Source: Gammaproteobacteria bacterium (lineage in GTDB: Bacteria; Pseudomonadota; Gammaproteobacteria; SZUA-152). Taken from it: a stretch of DNA of 41,946 bases. Below the pieces are notes generated by a model that was not told where the DNA came from, searched no databases, and worked only from the letters and a program-made list of their open reading frames with translations. The stretch is taken from positions 1-41,946 of the forward strand of contig JAKISS010000025.1 of NCBI GenBank assembly GCA_021648485.1, read 5' to 3'. The position numbers were made by a program, and so were the translations under genes. Below, piece after piece: positions 6,523 through 26,542 of this stretch (within the stretch, counting starts at the first letter, position 1; each line of letters begins with the position of its first letter).

Positions 6523-8064
6523 ATGAATTCTATCGAACTCAGTTTGTTTGCCAGTCGCATCGAGGCCGTCTGCGAGGAAATGGGCGCGGTGCTGCAACGT
6601 ACCGCTTTTTCGCCCAACATCAAGGATCGTCTGGATTATTCCTGTGCAGTGTTTGATGCTGCTGGTGAACTCTGCGCTCAAGCGGCGCACATCCCCGTGC
6701 ATCTCGGTAGTATGGCCTACGCCATGCGTAACATTGTGTCCGATTTACCGTGGTCACCCGGTGACATGGTGATTCTTAACGACCCCTATCTTGGCGGTAC
6801 CCACTTACCCGATGTAACGGTCATTGCCCCCGTGTTTGCTGCAAATTCCATGGTGGGGTTTGTTGCCAATCGCGCTCATCATGCGGATATCGGGGCCAGT
6901 ACTCCCGGCTCCATGCCTATTTCCCGACAGTTGAGTGAAGAAGGCATGATTATTCCACCCACATTTTTGGTGCAGGAAGGCAGGCTGGACGAACATAGAT
7001 TGACGGCTATCATTGGGGCAACCAGCAACTCTGAGCAATCCGGCGGTGATTTCGCGGCACAGATTTCCGCTAATCGTACCGGGTTGGCACGGCTCACCGC
7101 ATTGGTGCAGAGCATGGGTGTGACGCGATATGAAGAGAGCCTGCAACAGCTCAATGCCTATGCTGAGCGTTTGGCGGACAGTTGTCTGGGCGATATTCCT
7201 GATGGTGAATATTATTTTGAGGATGTGATGGACGGTGATGGTTTGGGTAACACCGACATTTCCATTGTGGTGACACTGCGTGTGAGCGGCCATCAAGTCC
7301 ATGTGGATTTCACCGGTACTGCACCACAGACTGCGGGTAATATCAATTGTCCTTTGTCGGTGGCAGCGGCCGGTGTGTATTACGTGTTTCGTTGTTTGAT
7401 GCCACCACAGACACCGGCCTGTGCAGGCAGTTTTCGTAGCATTACCCTGACGGCACCCGAGGGCTCATTGCTTAACGCCAGACGACCTGCCGCAGTGGCG
7501 GCGGGCAATGTGGAAACCAGCACCCGCGTGGTGGATGTGGTGATGGGCGCATTGGCGCAGGCGTTGCCGGATAAAATTCCTGCCGCCAGCCATGGCAGCA
7601 TGAATAATCTTGCTATGGGTTCGCGTGTTGCCGGTGCGGAGTGGGACTATTACGAAACCATCGGGGGTGGTATGGGTGCCGGGCCGGAACATGATGGCAT
7701 TAGTGCTGTGCAAACGCACATGACGAATACATTAAACACACCTATTGAGGTGTTGGAAAGTCATTACCCGTTACGTATTTGCCGTTATGCCTTACGGGAA
7801 GGCTCGGGTGGTGAAGGCAAATATCGTGGTGGTAATGGTTTAATACGGGAATTTGAGTTTTTGTCACCAACCACCGTAACGCTGCTGACCGAACGTCGTC
7901 GTCATGCACCATGGGGACTGCAAGGCGGGGGTGACGGTCAGCCAGGCAATAATTTACACAATGGGGGAGTTTTGCCGGAGAAGACCTGTTTTGAGATTAA
8001 GTCGGGTGAGCGACTGATGATTGCAACACCGGGCGGTGGCGGTTGGGGCGACGAAGACCACTGA
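6523..8064 (+). CDS. Hydantoinase B / 5-oxoprolinase-type protein (HyuB family)
   Basis: 513 residues. Family marks: IEAVCEEMGAVLQRTAFSPNIKDRLDYSCAVFD-like N-terminus, GDMVILNDPYLGGTHLPD, and a glycine-rich C-terminus (TPGGGGWGDEDH). HyuB proteins normally pair with HyuA for ATP-dependent hydrolysis of hydantoins, oxoproline or related rings, or act as carboxylase subunits. No hyuA lies beside it, so the substrate cannot be assigned. The ATG at 6523 is used; an in-frame TTG at 6505 is weaker. A hairpin follows at 8109-8138. Confidence 0.9.
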   Translation: MNSIELSLFASRIEAVCEEMGAVLQRTAFSPNIKDRLDYSCAVFDAAGELCAQAAHIPVHLGSMAYAMRNIVSDLPWSPGDMVILNDPYLGGTHLPDVTVIAPVFAANSMVGFVANRAHHADIGASTPGSMPISRQLSEEGMIIPPTFLVQEGRLDEHRLTAIIGATSNSEQSGGDFAAQISANRTGLARLTALVQSMGVTRYEESLQQLNAYAERLADSCLGDIPDGEYYFEDVMDGDGLGNTDISIVVTLRVSGHQVHVDFTGTAPQTAGNINCPLSVAAAGVYYVFRCLMPPQTPACAGSFRSITLTAPEGSLLNARRPAAVAAGNVETSTRVVDVVMGALAQALPDKIPAASHGSMNNLAMGSRVAGAEWDYYETIGGGMGAGPEHDGISAVQTHMTNTLNTPIEVLESHYPLRICRYALREGSGGEGKYRGGNGLIREFEFLSPTTVTLLTERRRHAPWGLQGGGDGQPGNNLHNGGVLPEKTCFEIKSGERLMIATPGGGGWGDEDH

Positions 8065-10803: not shown

Positions 10804-11826
10804 TTACCCTTTTTCTTCTTTGACCGGGGGGTGATAACCAAACTGGGCTTCCTTGTCGTACAGGCATGTCCAGTCCCTGTAGCGATGTGGTGATTTCCAT
10901 ACGCACATACGAAACACCACTCGGCCAGCACGATCCATCCAGCCATCTTTGCGCTCAATACAATGCAAGAGCTTCTGAAGCTCGGGTTTGGTTACTGATA
11001 CGCACCCACAAAATACGCCATGACCGGTTGTTACACGCTTAATGGGCAATGCGAAAATTTTACGCCAACATTCCACATTTTTTTTATGCAAATCGCCCGA
11101 GCCAGGGTAACGGAACTGTCTCACATAATCGAAGTAATGTATTACGCCGCAGCGCCGGGAAAAACTGATTGACCGTATGAGTTCCTGCATTAACCGAACC
11201 GCAATTCGACCATGGGGACGTGTTTCCGGCTCTCTGATGTAGAGGGTATCGCTACAGTAAAGCAAACCCGCCTCCTCGACGAATATTGCATGCTCCTGAT
11301 AAAAATCGGGCAGCCTGAAGTAGTGTGTACCGGCAAACAACGAGCCCTCTGTCGCTGCCGGAATTGCCGTACAGTGTTGTTGCAGTTCAGGCCGTTTCCA
11401 CAACATGCCTTGAGGAACCAGGAACGACGCTTCAGGGTAGGCATCAATGTATTGTGTGAGGAATGCATAATGAAAACAATTGGTCACAACGACACGTTGG
11501 ATGCTTCCCAGTTCATCCAGTTCTTTCCGCAGCTCTTCTGTCAGTGGACATGGGTTGTAAAGACATAACTCTCCGTTATGGACTACCACAAGCATACGCG
11601 AGAACTTGGTTATGCTTCTTGCCCATTTTCCGGAGTTACCCGAGTTGATGAAATGTTCACTGATGTAAACTGAAGATGAAATTTTAATGAGTGATGAGGA
11701 TGACAGCACGCCAATATCCGCAGTGGTCATGAAACAACAATAGAACGGATCCCACATGGCGCGGACGATAATGGCGATGGTGACGATGACAGCGATCGCA
11801 GCAACGATAATGATAGCTTCAAACAT
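10804..11826 (-). CDS. Membrane-anchored DUF4336-like protein
   Basis: 340 residues; the ATG at 11826 has AAGG about 12 bases upstream. One N-terminal transmembrane helix (IIIVAAIAVIVTIAIIVRAM, residues 5-24) anchors a cytoplasmic or periplasmic domain. The body resembles DUF4336, a degenerate metallo-beta-lactamase fold: LVVVHNGELCLYNPCPLTEEL, VVVTNCFHYAFL, LPDFYQEH, LLYCSDTLYI, TTGHG. The HxHxDH metal motif of true metallo-beta-lactamases is missing, so hydrolase activity is doubtful. An unusual Cys/His-rich C-terminus (VWKSPHRYRDWTCLYD) is present. Role unknown. Confidence 0.65.
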   Translation of the reverse strand: MFEAIIIVAAIAVIVTIAIIVRAMWDPFYCCFMTTADIGVLSSSSLIKISSSVYISEHFINSGNSGKWARSITKFSRMLVVVHNGELCLYNPCPLTEELRKELDELGSIQRVVVTNCFHYAFLTQYIDAYPEASFLVPQGMLWKRPELQQHCTAIPAATEGSLFAGTHYFRLPDFYQEHAIFVEEAGLLYCSDTLYIREPETRPHGRIAVRLMQELIRSISFSRRCGVIHYFDYVRQFRYPGSGDLHKKNVECWRKIFALPIKRVTTGHGVFCGCVSVTKPELQKLLHCIERKDGWMDRAGRVVFRMCVWKSPHRYRDWTCLYDKEAQFGYHPPVKEEKG

Positions 11827-12092
11827 AAGAGTACCTTGATAAATTTTAATTTTTAAAACTGAGTATTTTTACCGACATTTATTGGTATAAATAATGATCC
11901 TTGCGCTCATTTTTGATGCCTCTTGTTTTACGTTGTATTTTTTTTCGATTCACAGTAAGACTTTAAAATAACACTTGTTTTTCTAGATCGATCCAAGTTG
12001 TTTATCCACAGATGAGGTATCCATAAGATATTGCTTCAGCGGTAGACAACAGTTTTAATCCTTGCCGTTATGTTTTCTCGCACTAAGCGGGA
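11827..12092. other. AT-rich gene-free gap
   Basis: The upstream region of the DUF4336-like gene. It has long A/T runs and no convincing ORF, terminator or palindrome. Together with the remnant at 12093-12248 it forms a gap of about 550 bp. Confidence 0.5.
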
Positions 12093-12248
12093 TTATTTTC
12101 GTTGGTGTTTTCCGGGTTTCCGGCGTTTATTGACATACTGAATGGCTTTGTCTTTCCATTCGTTACGGCTTTGTAGGGTTTTGATCAGTGAAGTGTCAGC
12201 CTGCCTCCTTTCTGCTGGAAATGTCAGCTTGTTTCCTTTCGCTGAGAG
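12093..12248 (-). pseudogene. Probable transposase C-terminal remnant
   Basis: An open frame of 52 codons with no start codon, bounded by a TAA upstream. It reads SLIKTLQSRNEWKDKAIQYV, then a basic tail NKRRKPGKHQRK and a stop. The SRNxWKxKA pattern is common in transposase and transposon-associated proteins. On the same strand the imperfect 20-bp direct repeats around GCTGACATTTC and GCTGACACTTC, about 27 bp apart, resemble insertion-sequence end motifs. Best read as decayed IS sequence; a chance ORF is possible. Confidence 0.35.
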
Positions 12249-12304
12249 TTATCCTTTTTATCACTATTTATCGGTACGTTCTAGTCCGTTTTTTTAAAGT
12301 CTTT

Positions 12305-12324
12305 TAACAAAGGGTTGAAAACCC
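12305..12324 (-). terminator. Possible terminator after the RND gene
   Basis: On the minus strand GGGTT-TTC-AACCC is followed by TTTGTT, about 50 bp past the stop of the exporter gene. The stem is short (5 bp, extendable with mismatches). Confidence 0.4.
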
Positions 12325-12374
12325 CCACACCTTGTTGTTTTTATCCCGTTTTTATTTTTTATGCAGACAGAGAA

Positions 12375-14711
12375 CTACGCATGCCTAAGCGCCTTGGTGG
12401 CAGGTTGTTTATTGATTTTTTTCCTGTCAAACAACATGAGAATAGGAGGTAATAATAAAAAGTCCGCCAATAACGCAAAGGCGATGACGATAGCGGTGAG
12501 TAGCCCCATACCGGCATTCAGCTCAAAACTGGATAACGATAGCACCATGAAACCGACCACCAATACCACCGACGTTGTCAGCAGAGCCATGCCCACATTG
12601 CGGAATGCGTAACGCACGGCTTCTTCAGCATCCAATCCTTTTTCTCTGCGGGCACGCAGATATTTACTGAGAAAATGCACGGTGTCATCGACCACGATGC
12701 CCAGGGTCATACTCGCGACAATAGAAAGACTGAGCCCCACCTCGCCCACCAGCAGACCCCACAGGCCAAAACCCATCGCCGCAGGTATCAGATTGGGGAT
12801 CAGGCTCAGCAGGCCAATTTTAACTGAGCGCAGGGCGATGATCAGGATTAAGGAAATGCCGATCAACGCAAGAGTAGTACCGATCAGCATGCCAACGATA
12901 TTACGTCTTCCAATGTCCGCAAACATGATTGATACCCCGCTGCCTTCCTTGCCGCTGATGTGCGGGGTATTTTTTTTCAGCCAGTCATTGGCGCGTCTAT
13001 CCAGTGCCAGCAAGTCATTGGTTGACAAAGTTTGTAGTGTGGCAGTAAAGCGTGTGGCAGATTTTTCCACATTGACCTGATTATTCAGATCAAGCCCGTA
13101 GGGTAATGACATTTCATATAACAGCAAATATTGTGCCGCCAGATCGCGCTCATCGGGCAACCTGTACCAGCTTTGTTCATCACCGTGCATATTTTTATTG
13201 AGTCGTTTCATAATGTCGGTAATGCTGCTGACATGAATGGTTTCCGGTTGCGCACGATACCAGTCGGCAAAAGCGCTGACTTCTCGCAGGTATTCCGGGT
13301 CACTGATACCTCCAGGTTCACCGGAGTCCAACGAATAGTTGATGATATAAAGGCCCGTCAGATTTTCTGTCATAAAATCGGCATCGGTACGGAACTGCAT
13401 AGTCTCGTCAAAATAATGTACGAATACATCATTCATTTCATTGCGGGGTATTGATGCAATTAAAACAATGGCCACAATGCCCATTCCCCAAATCAGTTTC
13501 TGGCGTTGCCTGACCACAAAATCACCGACACGATGCATCATATGGAAATCATCATTGGCAATAGGGTTTACGCGCACGGGTAATACTGACATCAGTGCCG
13601 GCAAAAAAATGACGGATAAAAAGAAGGAAGCAACGACACCGATGGCGACCATATTACCCAGGTGCTGAAAGGGGGGTGCGTCGGAAAAATTCATGCTTAA
13701 AAACCCCAGGGTCGTTGTGATGCTGGCAAGAAATACCGGCTGCATATTGATACGCAGACTTTCTACAATGGCCGATTTTTTGTCACGGCCCATGCGCATT
13801 TCATGCAGCATGGTCACGAGAATATGCACGCAGTTAGCAATGGAAATAGTAAGCACAATCGTCGGCGTGGCAGCAGAGGGGGCGGTAATGGGAAAGTCCA
13901 GATAACTTCCCAGGCCCATAGCCGCTATGATGGAGCCGATGATCACCAGCAGAGTAGCAAAAGTGCCGGAAAACCCGCGAATCATCACGCCAAGGGTGAT
14001 CAGCATAAGTATAAAGCTGATGGGCACCAGCTTTTTCAAATCATCCTTTGCGGCTTCAGAGAAGGCATTGTTCATAAATATCACGCCGCTGAGATAGATA
14101 TCAATTTGTGGATATAATGCTTCAATTTCCGCCGCAATATTGCGTGCGAAAGTAGCAATTTCCAGAACTTCAGTTGATTTTTCACCGGGTAATTGCACGG
14201 TGACATTGATGCCAGTGACATGGGCGCGATCAGAAACAAAGCGGTTCAGCAGTACGGGTTCACTGAGTGCAATGCGTTTTATTTTTTTACGGTTATCATC
14301 CGTTAGCTCTATCTCTTCATCGATCAGGTTTCTTACCAGTAAATCATCACCTTCAGCTTCGGTGTTTTGAAAGTTGGCCAGTGAATCAACGCGAATGGAG
14401 TAGGGTGTTTGCCACGCTTTTTCGGTAAGTGTTTTTACTGCTTCCAAAGTCTCTCTACTGAAGACATTTCCGTCTTTGGGCGCCAGAATGAACATAACAT
14501 TATCATTTTTGGTGTACATCGCTCCCAGCGCTTCAAATGCGAGCAGTTGAGGATTATCCTCACTGAAAAAAATCCGGTAATCGGTTTTAATCGTCAGGTG
14601 TTTCATGCCCGTGGATGCGATTATCACCAGGAATACAGCGACGAATATTATTAGCCATGGATGGCGGGTAATCCAGCGGGCATAACGAATAACGAAAGTA
14701 GATTCACCCAT
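12375..14711 (-). CDS. RND superfamily (MMPL/HAE3-type) exporter
   Basis: 778 residues; the ATG at 14711 has AAGGA about 10 bases upstream. Inner-membrane protein with the duplicated RND plan: TM1 (residues about 16-34), a large periplasmic loop, a TM block with GSIIAAMGLGSYLDFPITAPSAATP-type RND4 sequence, then a second loop and TM block (LIPNLIPAAMGFGLWGLLVG, LGIVVDDTVHFLSKYLRAR). The HAE3/MMPL subgroup moves lipids, hopanoids or other hydrophobic molecules. The outer-membrane lipoprotein and regulator genes often found with such exporters are not adjacent, so the cargo is unknown. It stands alone in its transcript. Confidence 0.9.
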   Translation of the reverse strand: MGESTFVIRYARWITRHPWLIIFVAVFLVIIASTGMKHLTIKTDYRIFFSEDNPQLLAFEALGAMYTKNDNVMFILAPKDGNVFSRETLEAVKTLTEKAWQTPYSIRVDSLANFQNTEAEGDDLLVRNLIDEEIELTDDNRKKIKRIALSEPVLLNRFVSDRAHVTGINVTVQLPGEKSTEVLEIATFARNIAAEIEALYPQIDIYLSGVIFMNNAFSEAAKDDLKKLVPISFILMLITLGVMIRGFSGTFATLLVIIGSIIAAMGLGSYLDFPITAPSAATPTIVLTISIANCVHILVTMLHEMRMGRDKKSAIVESLRINMQPVFLASITTTLGFLSMNFSDAPPFQHLGNMVAIGVVASFFLSVIFLPALMSVLPVRVNPIANDDFHMMHRVGDFVVRQRQKLIWGMGIVAIVLIASIPRNEMNDVFVHYFDETMQFRTDADFMTENLTGLYIINYSLDSGEPGGISDPEYLREVSAFADWYRAQPETIHVSSITDIMKRLNKNMHGDEQSWYRLPDERDLAAQYLLLYEMSLPYGLDLNNQVNVEKSATRFTATLQTLSTNDLLALDRRANDWLKKNTPHISGKEGSGVSIMFADIGRRNIVGMLIGTTLALIGISLILIIALRSVKIGLLSLIPNLIPAAMGFGLWGLLVGEVGLSLSIVASMTLGIVVDDTVHFLSKYLRARREKGLDAEEAVRYAFRNVGMALLTTSVVLVVGFMVLSLSSFELNAGMGLLTAIVIAFALLADFLLLPPILMLFDRKKINKQPATKALRHA

Positions 14712-17953: not shown

Positions 17954-18625
17954 TTATTTTACGCGCTTGATAACGATGCGTGCCGTCGGGTTGCGCCAGT
18001 CGTAATCAGCGCTTACCAGATCACCAATGCCTTGTATTCCCGCATGGATATGTACATAACCTTCACCATCGGCATCCGGTGAGCCGCCTTCTCCGCCGCA
18101 AGCAGGGCCGGGTATGTTGGCGCACAACTCATCGTTAGGCTCACTGCCGGCATCATAAGCAGGCGACATGATGACTTTTTGATGATGCCTTTTTTTCGGG
18201 CCTTTCACGCCGTTAACAGCAATAAAAGCATCGTTGGTCGGGATCAGCATGGAGGCCACGGTAACGTGCCTGAAATGCCTCGCCATTTTGACCATGATGG
18301 TTGTACTGGCACCGGGTGCTAACAGCTCACCATTGCTGGCAATGTCATAGGCTACCCCAGAATTCATCAGTCGGGCTGATAGTGGCTCAATGTCACCCCC
18401 TTCAGCAAGTGCGGCCAGTCCAGTGCTGGCCGCTTCTCCCAGCTGAAAAATCTGTACGCCTCTTTTATGTGTGGCGACCATAACTGGGGTCAGTGTTGTT
18501 CCGCGAGTCAGGTTGGTGATGGTGACGGCGTACACGCCTGCTTTATCATCTGCTTGTACTGCAAAGGCTGACAGGCCAATGAATATCAGGCCAATGGACA
18601 GTAAAAAACGGGTTATGCGTTTCAT
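17954..18625 (-). CDS. Secreted spondin-domain protein
   Basis: 223 residues with a clear signal peptide ending near AVQA-DDK. The mature protein matches the bacterial spondin_N family: YAVTITNLTRGTTLTPVMVATH, FQLGEAASTGLAALAEGGD, LAPGASTTI, ASMLIPTNDAFIAVNG, AYDAGSEPNDELCANIPGPAC. Spondin domains resemble C2 folds and are thought to bind ligands or metals at the surface. The role in bacteria is unknown. The start at 18625 follows the signal-peptide pattern. It is a single-gene unit, convergent with the AT-rich gene to its left. Confidence 0.85.
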   Translation of the reverse strand: MKRITRFLLSIGLIFIGLSAFAVQADDKAGVYAVTITNLTRGTTLTPVMVATHKRGVQIFQLGEAASTGLAALAEGGDIEPLSARLMNSGVAYDIASNGELLAPGASTTIMVKMARHFRHVTVASMLIPTNDAFIAVNGVKGPKKRHHQKVIMSPAYDAGSEPNDELCANIPGPACGGEGGSPDADGEGYVHIHAGIQGIGDLVSADYDWRNPTARIVIKRVK

Positions 18626-18817: not shown

Positions 18818-20326
18818 TTAGCGGAACTGATACGTGGGCAAAGCAAAGCTGAAGGTTGTGCCATGATCAAGTTTACTGGCTGCCTGAATAGTGCCGCCAT
18901 GTAAATCGATAATGCGTTTGGCGATGGATAAACCCAATCCGGCATTGGTATCGCTGGCGGTGCGATTTTTTTCCAGGCGGTAAAACCGGTCGAAGATATG
19001 ATCAATTTCATCTTCAGGAATACCCTGTCCGGTATCGGCAACCTTGATCATGATATTGTCATATGCCGTAGTGAGTGACAGGGTGATACGTCCCCCGGCA
19101 GGTGTATAACGGAGGGCGTTCTCGATCAGATTGTCCAGTACCCGCTGAATCAGACCAATATCACCGTAGGCAAAGGGCAGGTCATTCACAAAGTTTGTCT
19201 GAATGCTGATGTTGCGCTTTTCTGCTTCCAGTTTGAATTTGTGCATGATGTCATGTGCCAGTTCAGTCAGTGAAAAAGGCTCGATGTTAAGCACAGTTTC
19301 ACTGGAGTCCAGCTTTGCCAGTTCGAACAGTTCTTCAATCAATTGCCGGAGTCGCATGCTTTGTGCTGTGGCAACTTGCAGGTATTGTCGTCTGTCCTGT
19401 TTCGACAGGGTGTCATCTTTTAATAACAGGGTTTCGAGATAGCCATGCAGAGAGGTTAAGGGCGTGCGCAAGTCGTGTGATACGTTGGCGACCATTTCTC
19501 GGCGCTTGGCATCATTTTGTGCCAGTTCTTTTAGTTGCTGATCAATACGGTCTGCCATCTGATTGAAGTTGATACCCAGCTGGTCGATTTCGTCAGTGGA
19601 TGTTGCCGAGACGGGGTAACGTGAGTTTGCATGGGGTGTCGAGGTATGTTTTATGGCGGTACCGTAAGTGGACATGATGCGCGTCAATATACGCAAGCGA
19701 CGTGTCAATAATGCGAATGCAGTTAGTCCCGCAGCCAGCGCAAGCAGCAGACTGGCACCAAGGCCTGTTGTGGTAAAGCGTAGAATGTAACTGCCTTTCA
19801 CTCTATCGGTAATGCTGTCAAAAGCTTGACCTTCGAGAATGACGTAAAGATAACCCGCAGGCTTGTCGGCAGTGTTACCGGGAATAACGGCTGCCGAAAA
19901 AACTTTTTGTCGTGAATGTTGATCATTGGTTGCTCGAGGGTCATCACCTGTCAGCGGGTATTCTTCCTTGCCGGAAAGAAATTTTTTGATGGGAGCGAGT
20001 GAAACCTGTTGACGTTTGACGTGACCTTCGGGTGCGGAAAAGGCTAAAATTTTCCCATTGGCATTTAACAGGTACAGTTCGATACTGGGATTAATGACCA
20101 TGAGCCAGTGAAAAAGTGATTTTAAGGCTTTTTGATTAACCCGTTGTTCCGTGAGCAGGGTCTCCTCATCCACAATATGTTTTGCCAGGGCGGCATTGAG
20201 TTTTTGGGTTAATTCCTGCTGATACATTTCCGATGAATACAACACCATGCTGTAAACCACATAGCCGATAAGCAATACCAGTGTAAACAGGACGGCGGCA
20301 ATGCGACTGTAAAGGGTGCGAAACAT
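18818..20326 (-). CDS. Sensor histidine kinase (HAMP, HisKA, HATPase)
   Basis: 502 residues. TM1 (about 10-30), a periplasmic sensor domain of about 150 residues, TM2 (about 185-207), HAMP, then the phospho-acceptor box VSHDLRTPL with His284. The ATP site is marked by the N-box NLIENALRYTP, G1 DTGQGIPEDE, the F-box, and G2 GLGLSIAKRI. It starts 5 bp after the OmpR-type regulator, so the two form a cognate pair on one transcript. The stimulus is unknown; the extracytoplasmic domain resembles no sensor family I can name. Confidence 0.92.
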   Translation of the reverse strand: MFRTLYSRIAAVLFTLVLLIGYVVYSMVLYSSEMYQQELTQKLNAALAKHIVDEETLLTEQRVNQKALKSLFHWLMVINPSIELYLLNANGKILAFSAPEGHVKRQQVSLAPIKKFLSGKEEYPLTGDDPRATNDQHSRQKVFSAAVIPGNTADKPAGYLYVILEGQAFDSITDRVKGSYILRFTTTGLGASLLLALAAGLTAFALLTRRLRILTRIMSTYGTAIKHTSTPHANSRYPVSATSTDEIDQLGINFNQMADRIDQQLKELAQNDAKRREMVANVSHDLRTPLTSLHGYLETLLLKDDTLSKQDRRQYLQVATAQSMRLRQLIEELFELAKLDSSETVLNIEPFSLTELAHDIMHKFKLEAEKRNISIQTNFVNDLPFAYGDIGLIQRVLDNLIENALRYTPAGGRITLSLTTAYDNIMIKVADTGQGIPEDEIDHIFDRFYRLEKNRTASDTNAGLGLSIAKRIIDLHGGTIQAASKLDHGTTFSFALPTYQFR

Positions 20327-20331
20327 GGTGT

Positions 20332-21030
20332 TTATACGTCTGAAAGTTTATCGGAGAATTTATAGCCCACGCCCCATACGGTGAGAATATAGGCGGGGGA
20401 AGAGGAGTCTTGCTCAATTTTGGCACGCAGCCGATTGATGTGCGAATTGACGGTATGTTCATAGCCATCATGACCATACCCCCAGACACTGTCGAGCAAT
20501 TGACTGCGGGTAAAGACCTGGCCGGGATGGGTGGCAAAATGCCAGAGAAGATCAAACTCGCGTGCAGTAAGATCGACCTCGTTACCCGTGATGCTGACCC
20601 GTCGCTTGGACGGTTCAAGGAAAAGAGCACCAGCCTGCAAGTTGTCAGTGGCAGGCGTGGTCTGTGTATCGACACGACGTAAAATAGCCTTGGCTCGGGC
20701 CACCAGTTCACGCACGCTGAAAGGTTTGGGCAGATAGTCATCGGCCCCCATTTCCAGGCCGACGATACGATCCAGTTCGGCTCCTTTAGCCGTTAACATC
20801 AGGATGGGCGTATGGTTATCAGCGCCGCGCAATCGGCGGCAAATTTCCAGGCCGTCAATACCGGGCAGCATGAGATCGAGAATGATCAGATCAAACCGGC
20901 TTTGTTGTGCCAGAGAAAGGCCGGTATTGCCGTCGTTGGCAATGTGTACCTCGGCACCCAGATCCTGTAAATGCATGGAGACCAGGTTGGCGATATCGTG
21001 ATTGTCTTCAACGACAAGAAACTGTTTCAT
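20332..21030 (-). CDS. OmpR/PhoB-family response regulator
   Basis: 232 residues. The receiver domain has the acidic pair ED (8-9), phospho-acceptor Asp52 (LIILDLMLPG), Thr (MLTAKG) and Lys (DYLPKPF). A winged-helix output domain follows (LTAREFDLLWHFATHPGQVFTRSQLLD, HINRLRAKIE). A DNA-binding transcriptional regulator, partner of the kinase immediately downstream. It lies 82 bp after the rhodanese gene and could be the end of the long dsrN-led run or have its own promoter in that gap. Confidence 0.94.
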   Translation of the reverse strand: MKQFLVVEDNHDIANLVSMHLQDLGAEVHIANDGNTGLSLAQQSRFDLIILDLMLPGIDGLEICRRLRGADNHTPILMLTAKGAELDRIVGLEMGADDYLPKPFSVRELVARAKAILRRVDTQTTPATDNLQAGALFLEPSKRRVSITGNEVDLTAREFDLLWHFATHPGQVFTRSQLLDSVWGYGHDGYEHTVNSHINRLRAKIEQDSSSPAYILTVWGVGYKFSDKLSDV

Positions 21031-21112
21031 GGAGAGCCTGGGGGGAAAACCTGTTTATTGCGACGAGTATAGTGTAGCCATGAATTGTCACAGAACCATC
21101 ACGCCCAGGAAA

Positions 21113-21583
21113 TCAGCTCCCTGGGTTACGTTGTTCAGGGTGCAATCGGGGGGTGAAGTAGGTTTCGGCAGTATCGGGATCAACCGGTTTCTGTTGTTCA
21201 TCCACCAGAGGGTATTCATCATCATTCCAGCCGCGCAGGCCGGTTTTGAGTGAGCGTACCTTGCTGAAACCCATCTGCATCAGCGTATAAGTTGCCAGTG
21301 CGCTGCGTCGGCCGGAGCGGCAAACAAGTACGAGATCACGATCACGCCCGGCGGCAAGTACCGGTACAGTTTCGTCATAATCATATTCACAGGCTGACTC
21401 CAGAATGCCGCGCGCGACGTTAAGTGAGCCAGGAATGTGTACGCGTGAAAACTCATCAGGTTCGCTGACATCAATAAGTAATAAATCAGGGTTTTCAGCG
21501 ATGTCATCGGCAAGATCCCAAGGGAAGACCTCTTCGATATGGGGCAGGCAATCATTCACCAAATCGTTGTAACGTTTCATCAT
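21113..21583 (-). CDS. Rhodanese-domain sulfurtransferase
   Basis: 156 residues, single rhodanese domain, cytoplasmic. The active loop is CRSGRRSA with the persulfide-forming Cys; DVSEPDEFSRVHIPGSLNVARG is the family's N-terminal motif, LMQMGFSKVRSLKTGLRGW the C-terminal one. It carries sulfane sulfur between donors and acceptors. The N-terminal extension (MMKRYNDLVNDCLPHIEEVFPWDLAD) is typical of rhodaneses involved in sulfur oxidation. Its place after the narL-like gene and the dsrNR pair supports a role in sulfur handling. Either of two adjacent ATGs (21583, 21580) may be used. Confidence 0.9.
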   Translation of the reverse strand: MMKRYNDLVNDCLPHIEEVFPWDLADDIAENPDLLLIDVSEPDEFSRVHIPGSLNVARGILESACEYDYDETVPVLAAGRDRDLVLVCRSGRRSALATYTLMQMGFSKVRSLKTGLRGWNDDEYPLVDEQQKPVDPDTAETYFTPRLHPEQRNPGS

Positions 21584-21644
21584 ATTGGCCGCAAAATAAC
21601 GTGGATGAAAAACAGGTAATTAAGAATTAAGAGGGAGCAGGTGC

Positions 21645-22301
21645 TCAGGAGGGAGGACTGCGCTGCCGCCCCAGCCCCTGTTCAACAGCAATAACCGCTG
21701 CCTCCACCCGCGAGCTGATTTCCAGTTTTCGCAATATGGCTTTTACGTGTAATTTTACCGTGCCATCGGTAATGCCCAGCTCTCGGGCAATGACCTTGTT
21801 ACTTTGGCCAAAGGCAAGATGCTCAATGATTTCCCGTTCGCGCGGAGTCAGTGCAGACAGGGGGGTTTTCTTTTCAGGTAATGCAGATTTCCCTTGCAGG
21901 GCGCGGGCCAGGGTACCGGCAAGTTGCGGCGCGACAATGGTTTCGCCTTTCATAATGTTGTGCAACGCGGCCACCAAGTCTTCCGGGTCCATATCTTTCA
22001 ACAGGTAACCCCGGGCACCACTGCGTAGGGATTCGAGTAAATCATGCTCTTCGGTGCTGGTAGTGAGCATGCCAATGGGGACAGTAACGCCTGCGTCACG
22101 TAATTTTTTCAGCACTTCCAAGCCGTCCATATCCGGCATGCGCATGTCCAGCAAAATGATATCGGGGTTGGCATCATGAACCGTGTCCAGCCCTTCCTGG
22201 CCCGTGCTGGCGGCGGCGATCACGTCAATGCCACTGCGTTCCAGCAGGTTTTTTAACCCCAGGCGAAACAGAGTGTGATCATCAATGAGCAGGACTTTCA
22301 T
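21645..22301 (-). CDS. NarL/FixJ-family response regulator
   Basis: 218 residues. Receiver with DDH (7-9), Asp52 (IILLDMRMPD), Thr and Lys (GYLLKDMDPED), then a LuxR-type HTH (LTPREREIIEHLAFGQSNKVIARELG, TVKLHVKAILRKL). The overall sequence is close to NarL/NarP. Its gene begins 46 bp after the NarX-like kinase, so the two are a cognate pair. Targets cannot be read from the window. No nitrate reductase genes are nearby, so the regulated process may be sulfur rather than nitrogen metabolism. Confidence 0.93.
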   Translation of the reverse strand: MKVLLIDDHTLFRLGLKNLLERSGIDVIAAASTGQEGLDTVHDANPDIILLDMRMPDMDGLEVLKKLRDAGVTVPIGMLTTSTEEHDLLESLRSGARGYLLKDMDPEDLVAALHNIMKGETIVAPQLAGTLARALQGKSALPEKKTPLSALTPREREIIEHLAFGQSNKVIARELGITDGTVKLHVKAILRKLEISSRVEAAVIAVEQGLGRQRSPPS

Positions 22302-22347
22302 ATGTCAATGATTCTAGCGGAATTTCATGTAGCCCGTCACTTATTCA

Positions 22348-23928
22348 TTACTGAAGGCGACGGTTTTTTTCACTGCATTGCATATCCTGCAATCGCAATT
22401 CAATACGGGTGCCCTCACCAGGGTCACTTTCAATGCTGAGTTCAGCACCGATGCGCTGTGCCCGTTCACGCATAATAGTGAGTCCAACATGTTCACCGGG
22501 CATGGCATTATTAATGTCAGACTCAATGCCCATACCATCATCTTCAATTAGCAAGTGAAACCCGAGTAACTCATCGCCACTGATTAAAATACGCACATAA
22601 TTGGCATGGCTGTGTTTGCGAATATTGGCTAATGCCTCCTGAATAATATGCAGAATATGCACTTCAAGCACGGGTGGTAATTTCAGTTCAGGGCACTCGT
22701 TCTGAAAAAATATCTGGCAGTGACTTTCATTCTTGAAACGTTCCACCAGGCCTTCCGTTGCCGGGATCAAACCCCGTTCATCCATGCGAATGCGAAAGTG
22801 AGCAAGCAGTTCACGCAGCTCAAAATTGGCTTCGTCCAGTCCGCCTTTGATTTGAGTCACTTCTTTCTGCGCATCCGTATTTTGGGTGTTCGAGTGAGTG
22901 TCCCCCGGAGAAAGGGTTTTTTGTAACATGCTGACCCGAAAACGCAGACTGGCCAGCGTCTGCGCCAGAGAATCATGCAGCTCATGAGCCAGCATGGTGC
23001 GTTCTTGCATGATGGATAAACGGTGGGACTCCGCATCCCAGTATGACTTGGTAATGGCCATGCTGAGGTGCTGACCAATGTTAGTGAGAATATCCTTAAT
23101 GTCCTCACGCTCAGTGAGCCCGAGTTTTTCCACAAACAAATTATAAATGCCCAGCGTGCGATTGTTGTAGCGTAGAGGAATAGCAATATTTTCCAGTTTG
23201 TCGCCTGAAAATAACAGATCGCCAGCAATATTCTGACAGCGCTCAAAACGGTTTTGGCATAACAGCATATTTTGGGAAAACTCCTGTGCGCACAAACAAT
23301 GTTCAATGGGTACAAGATGAATTCTTTCGATGATGCTGTCATCCAGGCCGACACTGCCGACCAGGCGCATTTTCCGGTCATCATTCATCAGCCGAACCGT
23401 ACCGGCATGGGCGTAAACGATCTCAGTCAACGTGTTGAGAAAACCAATGAGCAAGTCATCAATGTTTTTTGCTGAATTACTGCGGGCCGCGACATCATAC
23501 AAAATTTCCAGTGAACGGGTTTTTCGTTGCAGAATAATGGTTTGTTTATTGACCTGTTCATCCATGTCGCGTGTCAATGCGCGCAATGAGTCACCGAGTT
23601 TATTGATATCATTTGCCAATGCTGAAAATTCACCTTGTCTGGGTTGCTGAACACGAGCGGAAAGATCGCCGTTGCGCATGCGTTGTGCCCATTCACGTAA
23701 TTGCGCCAGTGGAGAGAGAAAGTGTTTTTTCATGCAGTACGCGATGCGTGAAATAAGGAAAAAACTGATGCTTGTAAGAATAATTTGACTGATGGCCAGA
23801 ATGGCCTGATATTGCGGCCAAAGCCAGGCGGCAATGCCGGAGAGTAATATGGCAAACAGGACAGTGATCAGGCTGATTAACAATGGCCGGAAAAACTCGC
23901 TGTTGTTGCTGACGCTATATGTTGACAT
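22348..23928 (-). CDS. NarX-like histidine kinase with Cys-rich GAF domain
   Basis: 526 residues. Two TM helices (about 15-37 and 41-62) are joined by only a few residues, so the periplasmic nitrate-sensing domain of true NarX is absent. HAMP (about 63-115) and a GAF-like domain (about 140-295) follow; within the GAF lie Cys211, 213, 224 and 231 (C-x-C-x10-C-x6-C). The HisKA_3 box HELHDSLAQTLASLR has the phospho-acceptor His318, and the HATPase has the N-box EALANIRKHS and the G-box DDGMGI. Sensing is therefore probably cytoplasmic, perhaps redox or an iron-sulfur cluster at the four cysteines. It is 37 bp after dsrR. Confidence 0.9.
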   Translation of the reverse strand: MSTYSVSNNSEFFRPLLISLITVLFAILLSGIAAWLWPQYQAILAISQIILTSISFFLISRIAYCMKKHFLSPLAQLREWAQRMRNGDLSARVQQPRQGEFSALANDINKLGDSLRALTRDMDEQVNKQTIILQRKTRSLEILYDVAARSNSAKNIDDLLIGFLNTLTEIVYAHAGTVRLMNDDRKMRLVGSVGLDDSIIERIHLVPIEHCLCAQEFSQNMLLCQNRFERCQNIAGDLLFSGDKLENIAIPLRYNNRTLGIYNLFVEKLGLTEREDIKDILTNIGQHLSMAITKSYWDAESHRLSIMQERTMLAHELHDSLAQTLASLRFRVSMLQKTLSPGDTHSNTQNTDAQKEVTQIKGGLDEANFELRELLAHFRIRMDERGLIPATEGLVERFKNESHCQIFFQNECPELKLPPVLEVHILHIIQEALANIRKHSHANYVRILISGDELLGFHLLIEDDGMGIESDINNAMPGEHVGLTIMRERAQRIGAELSIESDPGEGTRIELRLQDMQCSEKNRRLQ

Positions 23929-23965
23929 TATGAAAATGTGTTACCAGAGTTATTTCATTGTGTTT

Positions 23966-24283
23966 TTATTCTTTGGGTGGTTTGTAGTTGGGATCATTGG
24001 GGTTAAGAAAAATAAAATGATGCTGATCATTTTCAATGTCAACATAGTCGATGTGTACGCCGTTTAATAACTCCAGGCAATCCGGGCTGACCAGAAAATT
24101 AACGCCATCATCAGTAAACTGCACGTCATCTTTTTTTGTTTCATCGAACCCTATGCCGTAGTTAATGGTCTCATCTGCGGTCATGGTAGCGGCAATACGC
24201 AATGCCATGGCACCGTGCCCGTTGTCCTGTATGTTTGTTTTTATTTGTGCAATAGCGGCAGGAGAAAAGCTGATAATGTTCAT
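23966..24283 (-). CDS. dsrR: DsrR-like A-type carrier homologue lacking cluster cysteines
   Basis: 105 residues with the IscA/ErpA (HesB) fold pattern: FSPAAIAQIK, ALRIAAT, NYGIGFDETKKDD, GVNFLVSPDCLELLNGVHIDYV, FIFLNPNDPNYKPP. The three conserved Cys of IscA are replaced (the terminal CGCG becomes DPNY), leaving one unrelated Cys. This is the known hallmark of DsrR of sulfur-oxidiser dsr operons, reported to affect dsr expression rather than carry Fe-S clusters. In Allochromatium dsrR follows dsrN, as here (54 bp gap). The usual dsrS neighbour is missing. Confidence 0.82.
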   Translation of the reverse strand: MNIISFSPAAIAQIKTNIQDNGHGAMALRIAATMTADETINYGIGFDETKKDDVQFTDDGVNFLVSPDCLELLNGVHIDYVDIENDQHHFIFLNPNDPNYKPPKE

Positions 24284-24337
24284 ATATGATCGTTGCCTCT
24301 TCAGATTGATGATAATGGTTGTATGGAAAATCCCGGA

Positions 24338-25705
24338 TTATTTATGCCTGCGGACAAAATCAACAAACTGTTTTACCCACGGATTGTTTTCCACGTTACG
24401 CATATGGCTATAATTGGCCAGTACATTGTGATGAATAATGCCATCGTGCTGCCCCGTCATTCCATGGCCACGTAAGACACGATAAGCGAATTTCGTGGTT
24501 TTTTCGAGGTTTTCAGCGGATGAATAATGAAATTCATGAGCATTAATATTTTCGCCCTTATTTAACATTTCATCCCACAGTGTATTGTGCATTCTGGCCA
24601 GTTGCACATAGCCACGCCCCTGTGGGCGCTGATGCATACGTGTATCCATAGGCAGCGCACCCACCATGCTGCATTTGTTTTCATTCCATTGCAGACTGCG
24701 TGACAAATACATCAGACCACCACACTCGGCATACACCGGCAGGCCCGCTTCAATGGCTGTGCGAATGCTATCACGTAAAGAAATATTCGCCTCCAGTGTT
24801 TGCATCTGTGTCTCGGGAAAACCGCCGCCAATAAACAGGCCATCGATTTCGGGGAGTTGTGCGTCGTGCAGTGTATCGATACTCACTAATTCTGCACCCG
24901 CAATGCGAAAAGCCGCAAGATCATCGGGATAATAAAAACCAAAAGCAGCGTCTTGCGCGATACCGATGCGAATATCTACCGTGATGGATTCAGTTTTTAG
25001 TAGAGGCTGATAAGCAGGTGTTGTGGCATGGTTAGCGATATGTTGCAATTGGTCGAGATTCACCTGTTGGCCAATAACATCGGCAATGGCCTGAATTTGT
25101 CGTTCTACAGAGTCTGCCTCATTGCTAGGGATCAGGCCCAAATGCCGCTCCTGGATATCCAGCATGGGATCATGGTGTACCGCACCCACCACAGGCACAT
25201 CGGTATAATGCTCGATAACGGCACGCAGCTTGGACTCATGACGACTCCCGCCCAGTTTGTTGAGAATCACCCCTGCGATATTGATGCCTTTTTCAAAAGC
25301 CTGATAGCCGAGAATCAGCGGGGCAATGCCACGGGTCATACCTTGGGCATCGATCACCAGGATCACTGGCGAATCAAGCAGGGTAACCAGCGCTGCGTTA
25401 CTGTTTGTACCCTCAAGGTCAAGGCCATCGTAGAGCCCCTTGTTGCCCTCGATGATGCCGATGTCGGCTGAATCCGTACGATGACCAAAGGCACTGAGTA
25501 TCTCGCTGTGCTGTTGAGTATGGAAATCCAGATTGTAACAATCCTTTCCAGCAGCGCGGGACAGCCACATGGGATCGATGTAATCCGGGCCTTTTTTGAA
25601 GGGTTGCACACTAAGCCCGTGCTGGCGAAATGCACCGCAGAGACCGATGCTCAGTGTGGTTTTACCCGAAGACTTGTGGGCAGCGGAAATGAACAGATGA
25701 GCCAT
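24338..25705 (-). CDS. dsrN: DsrN-type siroheme amidase / cobyrinate a,c-diamide synthase family
   Basis: 455 residues. The N-terminal ATP-binding half starts FISAAHKSSGKTT and has FKKGPDYIDPMW and EGNKGLYDG. The C-terminal class-I glutaminase (GATase_3) has IGGGFPETQMQTL and the nucleophile in VYAECGGLMYLS. Amidates tetrapyrrole carboxylates with glutamine and ATP. CobB/CbiA uses cobyrinate; DsrN uses siroheme of sulfite reductase DsrAB. I choose DsrN because dsrR follows and no cobalamin gene is near. Start is the ATG at 25705 with AAGG 9 bases upstream; the frame opens at 25741. First gene of the run. Confidence 0.85.
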   Translation of the reverse strand: MAHLFISAAHKSSGKTTLSIGLCGAFRQHGLSVQPFKKGPDYIDPMWLSRAAGKDCYNLDFHTQQHSEILSAFGHRTDSADIGIIEGNKGLYDGLDLEGTNSNAALVTLLDSPVILVIDAQGMTRGIAPLILGYQAFEKGINIAGVILNKLGGSRHESKLRAVIEHYTDVPVVGAVHHDPMLDIQERHLGLIPSNEADSVERQIQAIADVIGQQVNLDQLQHIANHATTPAYQPLLKTESITVDIRIGIAQDAAFGFYYPDDLAAFRIAGAELVSIDTLHDAQLPEIDGLFIGGGFPETQMQTLEANISLRDSIRTAIEAGLPVYAECGGLMYLSRSLQWNENKCSMVGALPMDTRMHQRPQGRGYVQLARMHNTLWDEMLNKGENINAHEFHYSSAENLEKTTKFAYRVLRGHGMTGQHDGIIHHNVLANYSHMRNVENNPWVKQFVDFVRRHK

Positions 25706-25950
25706 GTAGTGCCTTATGTGAAAGGGCGAAATTGCCACCAAAAGCCGGATTACTCTGAAGCGGTATGCGATTAACGGTCAACTCACGAACAGTGTAGCCC
25801 AAAATATTCTTCGCTTTCTTTCACGCTATTTCCGCTGGTATGCCAGATTTATTCCAGAGTGAAGCGGGGTGATGAATAATAGAAGGCCTTTTGTACAAAA
25901 ATTCAACATAGTCATAGAATGAAAAAGGCATGCAGTGAATGATTGAGCCT

Positions 25951-25985
25951 CAAACGCGACGGGTATATACCCACTACGTTGTATG
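25951..25985. repeat. Back-to-back solo ends of the 160-bp element
   Basis: CAAACGCGACGGGTATA resembles the right end of the element at 26282-26443 and is followed at once by TATACCCACTACG, which resembles its left end. It looks like a joint of two decayed copies in the 837-bp gap upstream of dsrN. That gap also holds an 8-bp hairpin (CCTAACTT/AAGTTAGG, 26142-26174) and no credible gene. Confidence 0.4.
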
Positions 25986-26281
25986 CCATGGTAATGGCTG
26001 TATCTCTTTCAGGATATCGCTTTTGGCAATGACTGTTCGTCAGACGGTAACGGTTAAATAAGCAGCGTGAAATTTTAACCTTGAATAGGAGTAGCGTAGA
26101 TATAAAATACATGCACAGTCTGTAATAACCAGGAAAATAAACCTAACTTTATTTTGTGATTTGATTAAGTTAGGGGTCCGAAAAAAGTGAAGTCATTTAT
26201 TTTTCAGATTTGTGAGACATTGCCAGATTCTTCGGCGAGGTTCAGCAGACTGATCCTGTGTTTACTGATTTTCATGTTACT

Positions 26282-26443
26282 ATACCCGTAGCGATTGAAA
26301 TTTAGGCGCTCATTGCACACCCTCTTCATTCCATGGCTGCGTTGAAATTCCTCACAATAGACCGACTATTACTCGTCATTTCGCCTTGCCATGAAATGAA
26401 TATGACGCACACTGAACACCTAAATTTCAAACGCTACGGGTAT
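26282..26443. mobile_element. MITE-like element, copy 2
   Basis: This 162-bp element has ends ATACCCGTAGCGATTGAAA and its near-perfect inverse (TTTCAAACGCTACGGGTAT). The interior is related to the copy at 473-631, including CCATGGCTGCGTTG and GAATATGACGCAC. It has better-conserved ends than copy 1, so is probably the younger insertion. Confidence 0.78.
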
Positions 26444-26542
26444 ATCAAGAGCGTGCATGAAACAAGTTTAGGATATGGCGTTGATTTACTTGGGCTGTTA
26501 TCTGTATTGTGAGCTATAAAAACGGGAAGGTGACTTTCCGTA

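Follow-up and report, generated by a model that had tools for sequence, protein, structure and literature searches.

The window, by which we mean the whole stretch of DNA analyzed here, comprises 41,946 bp of contig JAKISS010000025.1 from a gammaproteobacterial metagenome bin (assembly GCA_021648485.1). Its minus strand carries a run of seven genes that opens with dsrN and dsrR, genes of the reverse dsr operon for sulfur oxidation, and continues with a NarX-type kinase, a NarL-type regulator, a rhodanese and a second pair of signaling genes. This run, together with a palindrome located upstream of dsrA in related genomes, is the subject of this report. The seven genes are as follows.

24338–25705, minus strand: dsrN, predicted siroheme amidase, a member of the cobyrinate a,c-diamide synthase family (family scans, identity and context)
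23966–24283, minus strand: dsrR, A-type protein without ligand cysteines (2k4z, E 7.7e-25)
22348–23928, minus strand: NarX-family kinase with a two-helix membrane hairpin, HAMP, GAF (Cys triad C211/C213/C231), HisKA_3 and HATPase; P-box absent
21645–22301, minus strand: NarL-family response regulator, recognition helix DGTVKLHVK (family scans, 1a04)
21113–21583, minus strand: single-domain rhodanese, CRSGRRS loop read by eye; also conserved behind narL in some of the loci surveyed
20332–21030, minus strand: OmpR-type response regulator (family scans, relatives' gene order)
18818–20326, minus strand: histidine kinase (HisKA) that presumably pairs with the OmpR-type regulator (family scans, relatives' gene order)

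The open reading frame coordinates bear out the gene order, common strand and gaps of 54, 37, 46, 61, 82 and 5 bp given in a preliminary description of this DNA. Family scans agree for the run, returning a cobyrinate-type diamide synthase and A-type, NarX/NarQ-like, NarL-like, rhodanese, OmpR-type and HisKA proteins. The start of dsrN was placed at the ATG at 25705; the frame is also listed in a longer version that begins with the TTG at 25741. In line with the preliminary description, the rest of the dsr operon was not found in the window, which gave no match to dsrA, F, H, C, M, K, L, O or P or to a DsrS-like query; dsrB, E and J were outside this query set. A terminator scan gave two matches on the minus strand of the run, both inside genes and none between them, and it performed no better than on shuffled sequences. 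The seven genes may be co-transcribed.

Forty genomes were surveyed, the window's own and 39 relatives (numbered with G; loci with L; contigs of the window's own genome with C). dsrN was present in 24 of them, the window's own included. DsrN shared 53–97% identity with the relatives' copies (that of G007 is in two pieces; those of G018 and G020 are partial), whereas CobB-type paralogues reached 32–36% (42% for one partial piece), and the own genome holds a separate CobB-type paralogue at C55:13335. The possibility that DsrN groups with CobB, raised in the preliminary description, is ruled out by these results. The closest NCBIfam models for the dsrN product were CfbB and CobB. The matches included no model for DsrN itself, and orthology was therefore judged from gene neighborhood and sequence identity. 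Among named DsrN loci, taken as the best 80 of 573, dsrP lies within 2.5 kb upstream of dsrN in 65 of the 70 that have more than 2.2 kb of upstream sequence. For DsrR, the best solved match was DsrR itself (2k4z, E 7.7e-25; runner-up 1.5e-6), and no cysteine occupies the A-type ligand positions in that alignment. The earlier label "Cys-less" therefore fits those positions and not the whole protein, which has one cysteine outside them. The DsrN family amidates the siroheme of DsrAB, and the DsrR family helps the pathway.

Gene order in the relatives was read using window and G004 proteins as queries, without dsrB, E and J, and counts were made by eye. G010 carries a contiguous dsrA-F-H-C-M-K-L-O-P-trpD2-dsrN-dsrR-narX-narL-rhodanese-ompR-kinase order followed by a Spondin_N-domain gene, and parts of this order occur in many other relatives. 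dsrP precedes dsrN, with or without trpD2 between them, in 18 of the 24 genomes (G001, G004, G010–G019, G022–G024, G032, G037 and G038). It does not in G000, G002, G006 and G005, the last on a contig that begins 248 bp ahead of dsrN and lacks trpD2; no call was possible for G007 and G020. In 20 of the 24, the window's own genome among them, the first query gene met behind dsrN or dsrN-dsrR on that strand is narX. The exceptions are G001 (contig end), G016 (narX about 8.6 kb on), and G018 and G038 (narX on a different contig). Since dsrP stands before dsrN in 18 and narX next in 20 of the 24, the join of dsrN-dsrR to the two-component system and rhodanese is old, and only the break in front of dsrN is new here. 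The earlier idea that a relocation had fused dsrN-dsrR to signaling genes is not borne out, the same order standing behind dsrP in relatives.

Within the best 80 of 573 named loci, 28 have narX (at least 100 bits, starting no more than 5.2 kb behind dsrN) on the strand of dsrN, 9 have it on the other strand and 33 do not have it there; the remaining 10 had less than 2.5 kb of sequence. All nine opposite-strand loci are titled betaproteobacterial. The rhodanese followed narX in 15 of the 28 same-strand loci, and trpD2 preceded dsrN in 13 of the 80. L112, L113 and L123 appear identical to G004, G015 and G014, respectively, so the two surveys overlap. Of 121 sources searched, 8 have a DsrS-like gene behind dsrR (L094, L145, L163, L174, L175 at 11714–12823, L180, L182 and L184), and none of these 8 has narX there; DsrS-like and narX are thus two alternative tails. 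G003, G009 and G021 (73, 96 and 86% complete, respectively) have dsrA, and neither dsrN nor a dsr-type narX was found in them, so the dsrN-narX block also seems to be missing as a unit. In many relatives, dsrP and dsrN are separated by a TrpD2/YbiB-like gene, named by eye (L058:12824–13825 in G004; L056:889–1896 in G002). In the window, a Spondin_N-domain protein is encoded at 17954–18625 on the same strand behind the HisKA kinase, and it is a neighbor in G006, G010 and G011 as well.

The kinase that accompanies dsrN differs from nitrate sensors in its input region. The P-box motif, which we take to be the nitrate site of NarX, was absent from all 61 dsr-associated kinases aligned (35 linked to dsrN, 10 unlinked and 16 betaproteobacterial) and present in 5 of 5 long paralogues; cut or duplicate linked kinases were omitted, and the five paralogues were chosen after viewing their N-termini. 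A looser pattern run on 86 kinases matched six long paralogues only. In the AlphaFold model (mean predicted local distance difference test score 75, predicted template modeling score 0.41), two long helices with a link of about one residue lead into HAMP, GAF and kinase domains, with the Cys loop at low confidence. The preliminary description had a cytoplasmic sensor, and the kinase does lack a periplasmic domain, with a bare helix hairpin in the model. Because the kinase has neither a periplasmic domain nor a P-box, it likely senses a signal from inside the cell; redox state or sulfane sulfur is our guess at its nature. Cysteine was found at both C211 and C213 in 30 of the 35 linked kinases and at C231 in 32, and each position was conserved in 9 of the 10 unlinked kinases. 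Betaproteobacterial kinases have a shifted version of the triad, and the long paralogues have 3, 5 and 3 of 5 at C211, C213 and C231, respectively.

In a further set of 30 genomes, no same-strand narX was seen behind dsrN (by title, 13 gammaproteobacterial, 12 betaproteobacterial, 3 alphaproteobacterial and 2 only Proteobacteria). NarX (300–497 bits) stood beside NarL in 11 of the 13 gammaproteobacterial genomes, with the same rhodanese in 6 of these 11. Among these 13, no dsr-type NarX was found in G090 and G096 (Thiomargarita nelsonii). None of the three alphaproteobacterial genomes had NarX, and betaproteobacterial ones gave weaker matches, up to 243 bits. In G098 and G099 the dsrN contig ends shortly behind dsrR, and narX may be linked there. 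In a midpoint-rooted tree of 28 of the 35 linked, all 10 unlinked, 12 of the 16 betaproteobacterial and all 5 long kinases, linked and unlinked gammaproteobacterial kinases intermixed in one branch (95/93), separate from a betaproteobacterial branch (100/98) and a long nitrate-type branch (90/83); the tool issued a long-branch attraction warning for the nitrate-type kinases. A GAF-kinase/NarL pair lies on the opposite strand near dsrN in nine betaproteobacterial loci (L127, L139, L140, L149, L160, L161, L173, L181 and L191), and the gammaproteobacterial operator described below is absent from them where tested.

The regulator consists of a receiver and a GerE helix-turn-helix domain, and among solved structures it matches E. 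coli NarL best (1a04, E 5e-51). In an alignment that took in 31 linked sequences, the recognition helix GTVKLHVK occurred in 41 of 41 gammaproteobacterial regulators (DGTVKLHVK in 40 of 41), and in none of the 16 betaproteobacterial or 5 nitrate-type ones.

A possible target of this regulator lies upstream of dsrA, where a 16-bp palindrome was first seen in family f1. Allowing one mismatch to TAYCNCNNNNGNGRTA within 600 bp ahead of the conserved GPWPSF codons, the palindrome TAYCNC-N4-GNGRTA was found in 39 of 51 gammaproteobacterial loci and in 0 of 13 others, against about 2.2 and 0.5 expected. By group, it was present in 15 of 15 f1 loci, which are not mutually independent, 4 of 4 other class relatives, 13 of 20 linked and 7 of 12 unlinked gammaproteobacterial loci, and 0 of 13 alphaproteobacterial, betaproteobacterial or unlabelled loci (3, 8 and 2 titled only Proteobacteria, respectively). 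First-order Markov resampling gave expectations of 0.69, 0.14, 0.97, 0.42 and 0.53 for these groups. Two of the loci counted as gammaproteobacterial, L122 and L133, are titled only Proteobacteria, and the unlinked group includes L119, L122 and L138, three loci that may be linked because their dsrN contigs stop shortly after dsrR. L154, L174, L182 and L184 lacked the anchor motif and were dropped; their best sites have two mismatches, that of L154 outside the usual place. Also left out were L195, the fragments or short sequences behind L176, L177, L179, L183 and L185, the fragments L216 and L217, L218–L220 (not dsrA by score), second dsrA copies without loci, and the f1 members G005, G018, G020 and G022.

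A scan for any 7-2-7 palindrome with 6 of 7 pairs, free of a preset pattern, returned TAYC..GRTA forms in 20 of the 51 gammaproteobacterial upstream regions, and by eye nothing else recurred beyond near relatives. No alphaproteobacterial or betaproteobacterial counterpart emerged from the scan upstream of dsrA. Positions 2, 13 and 16 are invariant in the 39 sites. The E. coli NarL box has the half-site TACYYMT in 7-2-7 spacing, and both the spacing and the TACCCC variants at dsrA fit this box. A search for E. coli-type NarL boxes before dsrN led nowhere. An exact palindrome shared at C24:10449 was considered as a second target and rejected, as it sits at the end of a flagellin-like gene.

Based on these results, we lean narrowly toward the following mechanism. 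The run would be the 3′ tail of a reverse dsr operon, detached as a block from dsrA-P in part of the genus. DsrN would amidate the siroheme of DsrAB, with DsrR assisting the pathway, and the NarX-type kinase and NarL-type regulator would form a dedicated dsr two-component system. The GAF domain with its Cys triad may let the kinase respond to redox state or sulfane sulfur inside the cell. Once phosphorylated, the regulator would bind the 7-2-7 palindrome TATCMC-N4-GRGATA upstream of dsrA and set transcription of the core operon in trans; NarL binding, the signal and the direction of control are predicted. The rhodanese would handle sulfane sulfur and may inform the kinase. The preliminary description had the sensor and regulator controlling the Dsr cofactor or sulfur relay. 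They do travel with dsrN-dsrR; as a target, the whole dsr operon, reached through the putative dsrA operator, is likelier than the cofactor genes alone. The conserved dsr-associated NarX-NarL(-rhodanese) cassette without a nitrate site, together with the conserved putative dsrA operator, is a stronger result than the split.

Several observations weigh against this mechanism. The Cys triad is common to nitrate-type kinases and hence not special to dsr. The palindrome pattern was widened after the TACCCC forms of other lineages were seen, and its third base is unlike that of the E. coli half-site TACYYMT in 32 of 39 sites. At one mismatch or fewer, 12 of the 51 gammaproteobacterial loci have no palindrome, including 7 of the 20 with linked narX, and L156 and L158 have NarX elsewhere in the genome and no palindrome. 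Conversely, G090, G003, G009 and G021 (bins or drafts) have the palindrome, and no dsr-type NarX was found in them. Sites with at most one mismatch accompany 3 of 11 unlinked narX cassettes, giving no sign of self-control. Exact matches across 10 genomes numbered 31 against 22 for a reversed-pattern control, with the dsrA site among them in 7 of 10; because this excess is so slight, a large regulon is not indicated. The imperfect co-occurrence of NarX and palindrome, and the occurrence of the pair as an independent cassette in several genomes, would suit a NarX-NarL pair that is a mere passenger near dsr and controls, for example, respiration, with another protein reading the dsrA palindrome. 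DsrC, which has been proposed to bind DNA upstream of dsrA, could be that protein. We find this explanation doubtful, because linkage to dsrN spans several families, the kinases form one branch without the P-box, the palindrome has 7-2-7 geometry and the recognition helix is fixed in the gammaproteobacterial set only.

Alternatively, the regulator could mainly control its own detached block of dsrN, dsrR and rhodanese, that is, cofactor supply. It sits in the same run, and a candidate site lies about 300 bp before dsrN.

26001–26016, strand not assigned: TATCTCTTTCAGGATA, which differs from the dsrA operator pattern at one position; a weak candidate that may be chance

The narrower pattern TATCNCYNNAGRGATA with at most two mismatches also gave 8 matches at 6 places in the whole window, two of the places being counted once per strand, where 1.45 matches were expected. 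However, the site at 26001–26016 is not in the leader of G006, one-mismatch sites number 7 in 41,946 bp (about one per 6 kb), the other places are scattered, and the block stands behind dsrA-P in relatives. Control mainly of the block is therefore very unlikely, and control of dsr through the dsrA palindrome remains the reading we prefer.

The separation of dsrN and dsrR from the dsr core, noted in the preliminary description, holds in the window, which has no dsr core in front of them, unlike 18 of the 24 genomes. The lineage-specific element is only the break before dsrN, seen in the window genome, G006 and G005, and in another form in G002. Upstream of dsrN, the window has CDF, ArsR and GGDEF genes (GGDEF by eye), and G006, whose dsrN is 97% identical, has CbbO-like, CbbQ-like and form II RubisCO genes (translations read, no family scan). 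The two share a leader of about 300 bp, beyond which the sequences part.

25706–26000, minus strand: leader of the detached module, common to the window and G006 up to about here, compared by eye

A putative promoter element, TACACT (plus strand, 25791–25796), is found in G006 as well, and in G005 with slightly altered surroundings. Near the divergence point, an inverted repeat at 26281–26444 has 57-bp arms that are 81% complementary and resembles a miniature inverted-repeat transposable element. A split created by assembly of the bin would agree with the 102-contig draft state of the window genome and with the unlike upstream neighbors in the window and G006. Against it, neither dsrP nor trpD2 occurs in G006 over the 11.8 kb that were read ahead of dsrN, the same leader takes the place of trpD2 in G005, and in G002 dsrP is followed by other genes for 2.7 kb, with trpD2-dsrN on a separate contig. 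An artefact is unlikely, and the split is probably real. dsrN also lacks dsrP in 5 of the 70 named loci (L143 Thiomargarita, L147, L154 Leucothrix, L162 and L178 Thioploca), and it has likely parted from the dsr core more than once.

The preliminary description had let its reading hang on the presence of dsrAB in the genome. The window's own assembly, 86% complete in 102 contigs, gave no dsrA score over the cut-off; its two weak matches resemble those in below-cut-off controls, E. coli included. DsrP was not found in a search without a positive control. The dsr core is present in G006, the closest relative, and its 10-kb dsr stretch gave 51 rows against the own genome, 38 at query positions 6906–7166 and 13 at 1–189 or 2485–2590 (40 of 108 first-look candidates scored). 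All 51 fall in repeats or spacers and none runs through a dsr gene. A repeat upstream of G006 dsrA, L053:6909–7132, is the source of the 38 rows. ribF, named from sequence, adjoins dsrA in G006 and G009 (2 of 15 loci searched), and it was not found in the own assembly in a search without a positive control. ribF is essential. Because this neighbor of dsrA in two sister genomes is also not found, a stretch missing from the bin likely explains the absence of dsrAB better than dsr loss. DsrC copies at C50 and C89 were rejected as markers of a dsr operon, as other dsr queries matched nothing in the stretches read around them. The copy at C50 (L004:13918–14646) is a single open reading frame of 242 amino acids with two DsrC-like domains in tandem.

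Compared with the reverse dsr operon dsrABEFHCMKLJOPNRS of Allochromatium vinosum and the Solemya velum symbiont, the window shares the order and orientation of dsrN and dsrR, and its relatives hold the core in front. It differs in that no DsrS-like gene was found in the window, that NarX, NarL, rhodanese, OmpR and kinase genes stand behind dsrR, and that the tail is detached; many relatives differ further in the TrpD2-like gene between dsrP and dsrN. With NarX-NarL and NarQ-NarP, the dsr pair shares the kinase and regulator families, the GAF Cys triad (in part of the nitrate-type kinases) and the helix core TVKxHV. Unlike them, it lacks the P-box and periplasmic domain, forms a separate branch, is linked to dsr and has a proposed half-site that is mostly TATCMC rather than TACYYMT. 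To our knowledge, how sulfur switches the dsr operon is unsettled. Dedicated sulfur-oxidation regulators are reported from two other genera. Hyphomicrobium has sHdrR and SoxR, ArsR-type repressors that respond to sulfane sulfur (PMC12423496), and Acidithiobacillus has RsrS-RsrR (PMC5093147). sHdrR and SoxR belong to another family than the dsr pair, and both systems are reported to serve other pathways (thiosulfate and sHdr; tetrathionate). The open-access literature in PMC, which leaves most subscription papers outside its coverage, gave no report tying NarX-NarL to dsr.

Herein, we tentatively propose, as an idea somewhat more apt to fail than to hold, that the missing regulator of reverse dsr in Gammaproteobacteria is a dedicated NarX-NarL-type system, turned from nitrate to a sulfur or redox signal inside the cell, and that it acts through the dsrA palindrome. 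In the genus studied here, it would have become a trans-acting block together with cofactor genes. Allochromatium vinosum is reported to have NarX-NarL and no obvious nitrate reduction genes (PMC3368242). This organism would be a direct test case if its NarX-NarL belongs to the dsr kinase clade. Our results provide a concrete candidate regulator, a candidate operator sequence and a genome list for dsr control.

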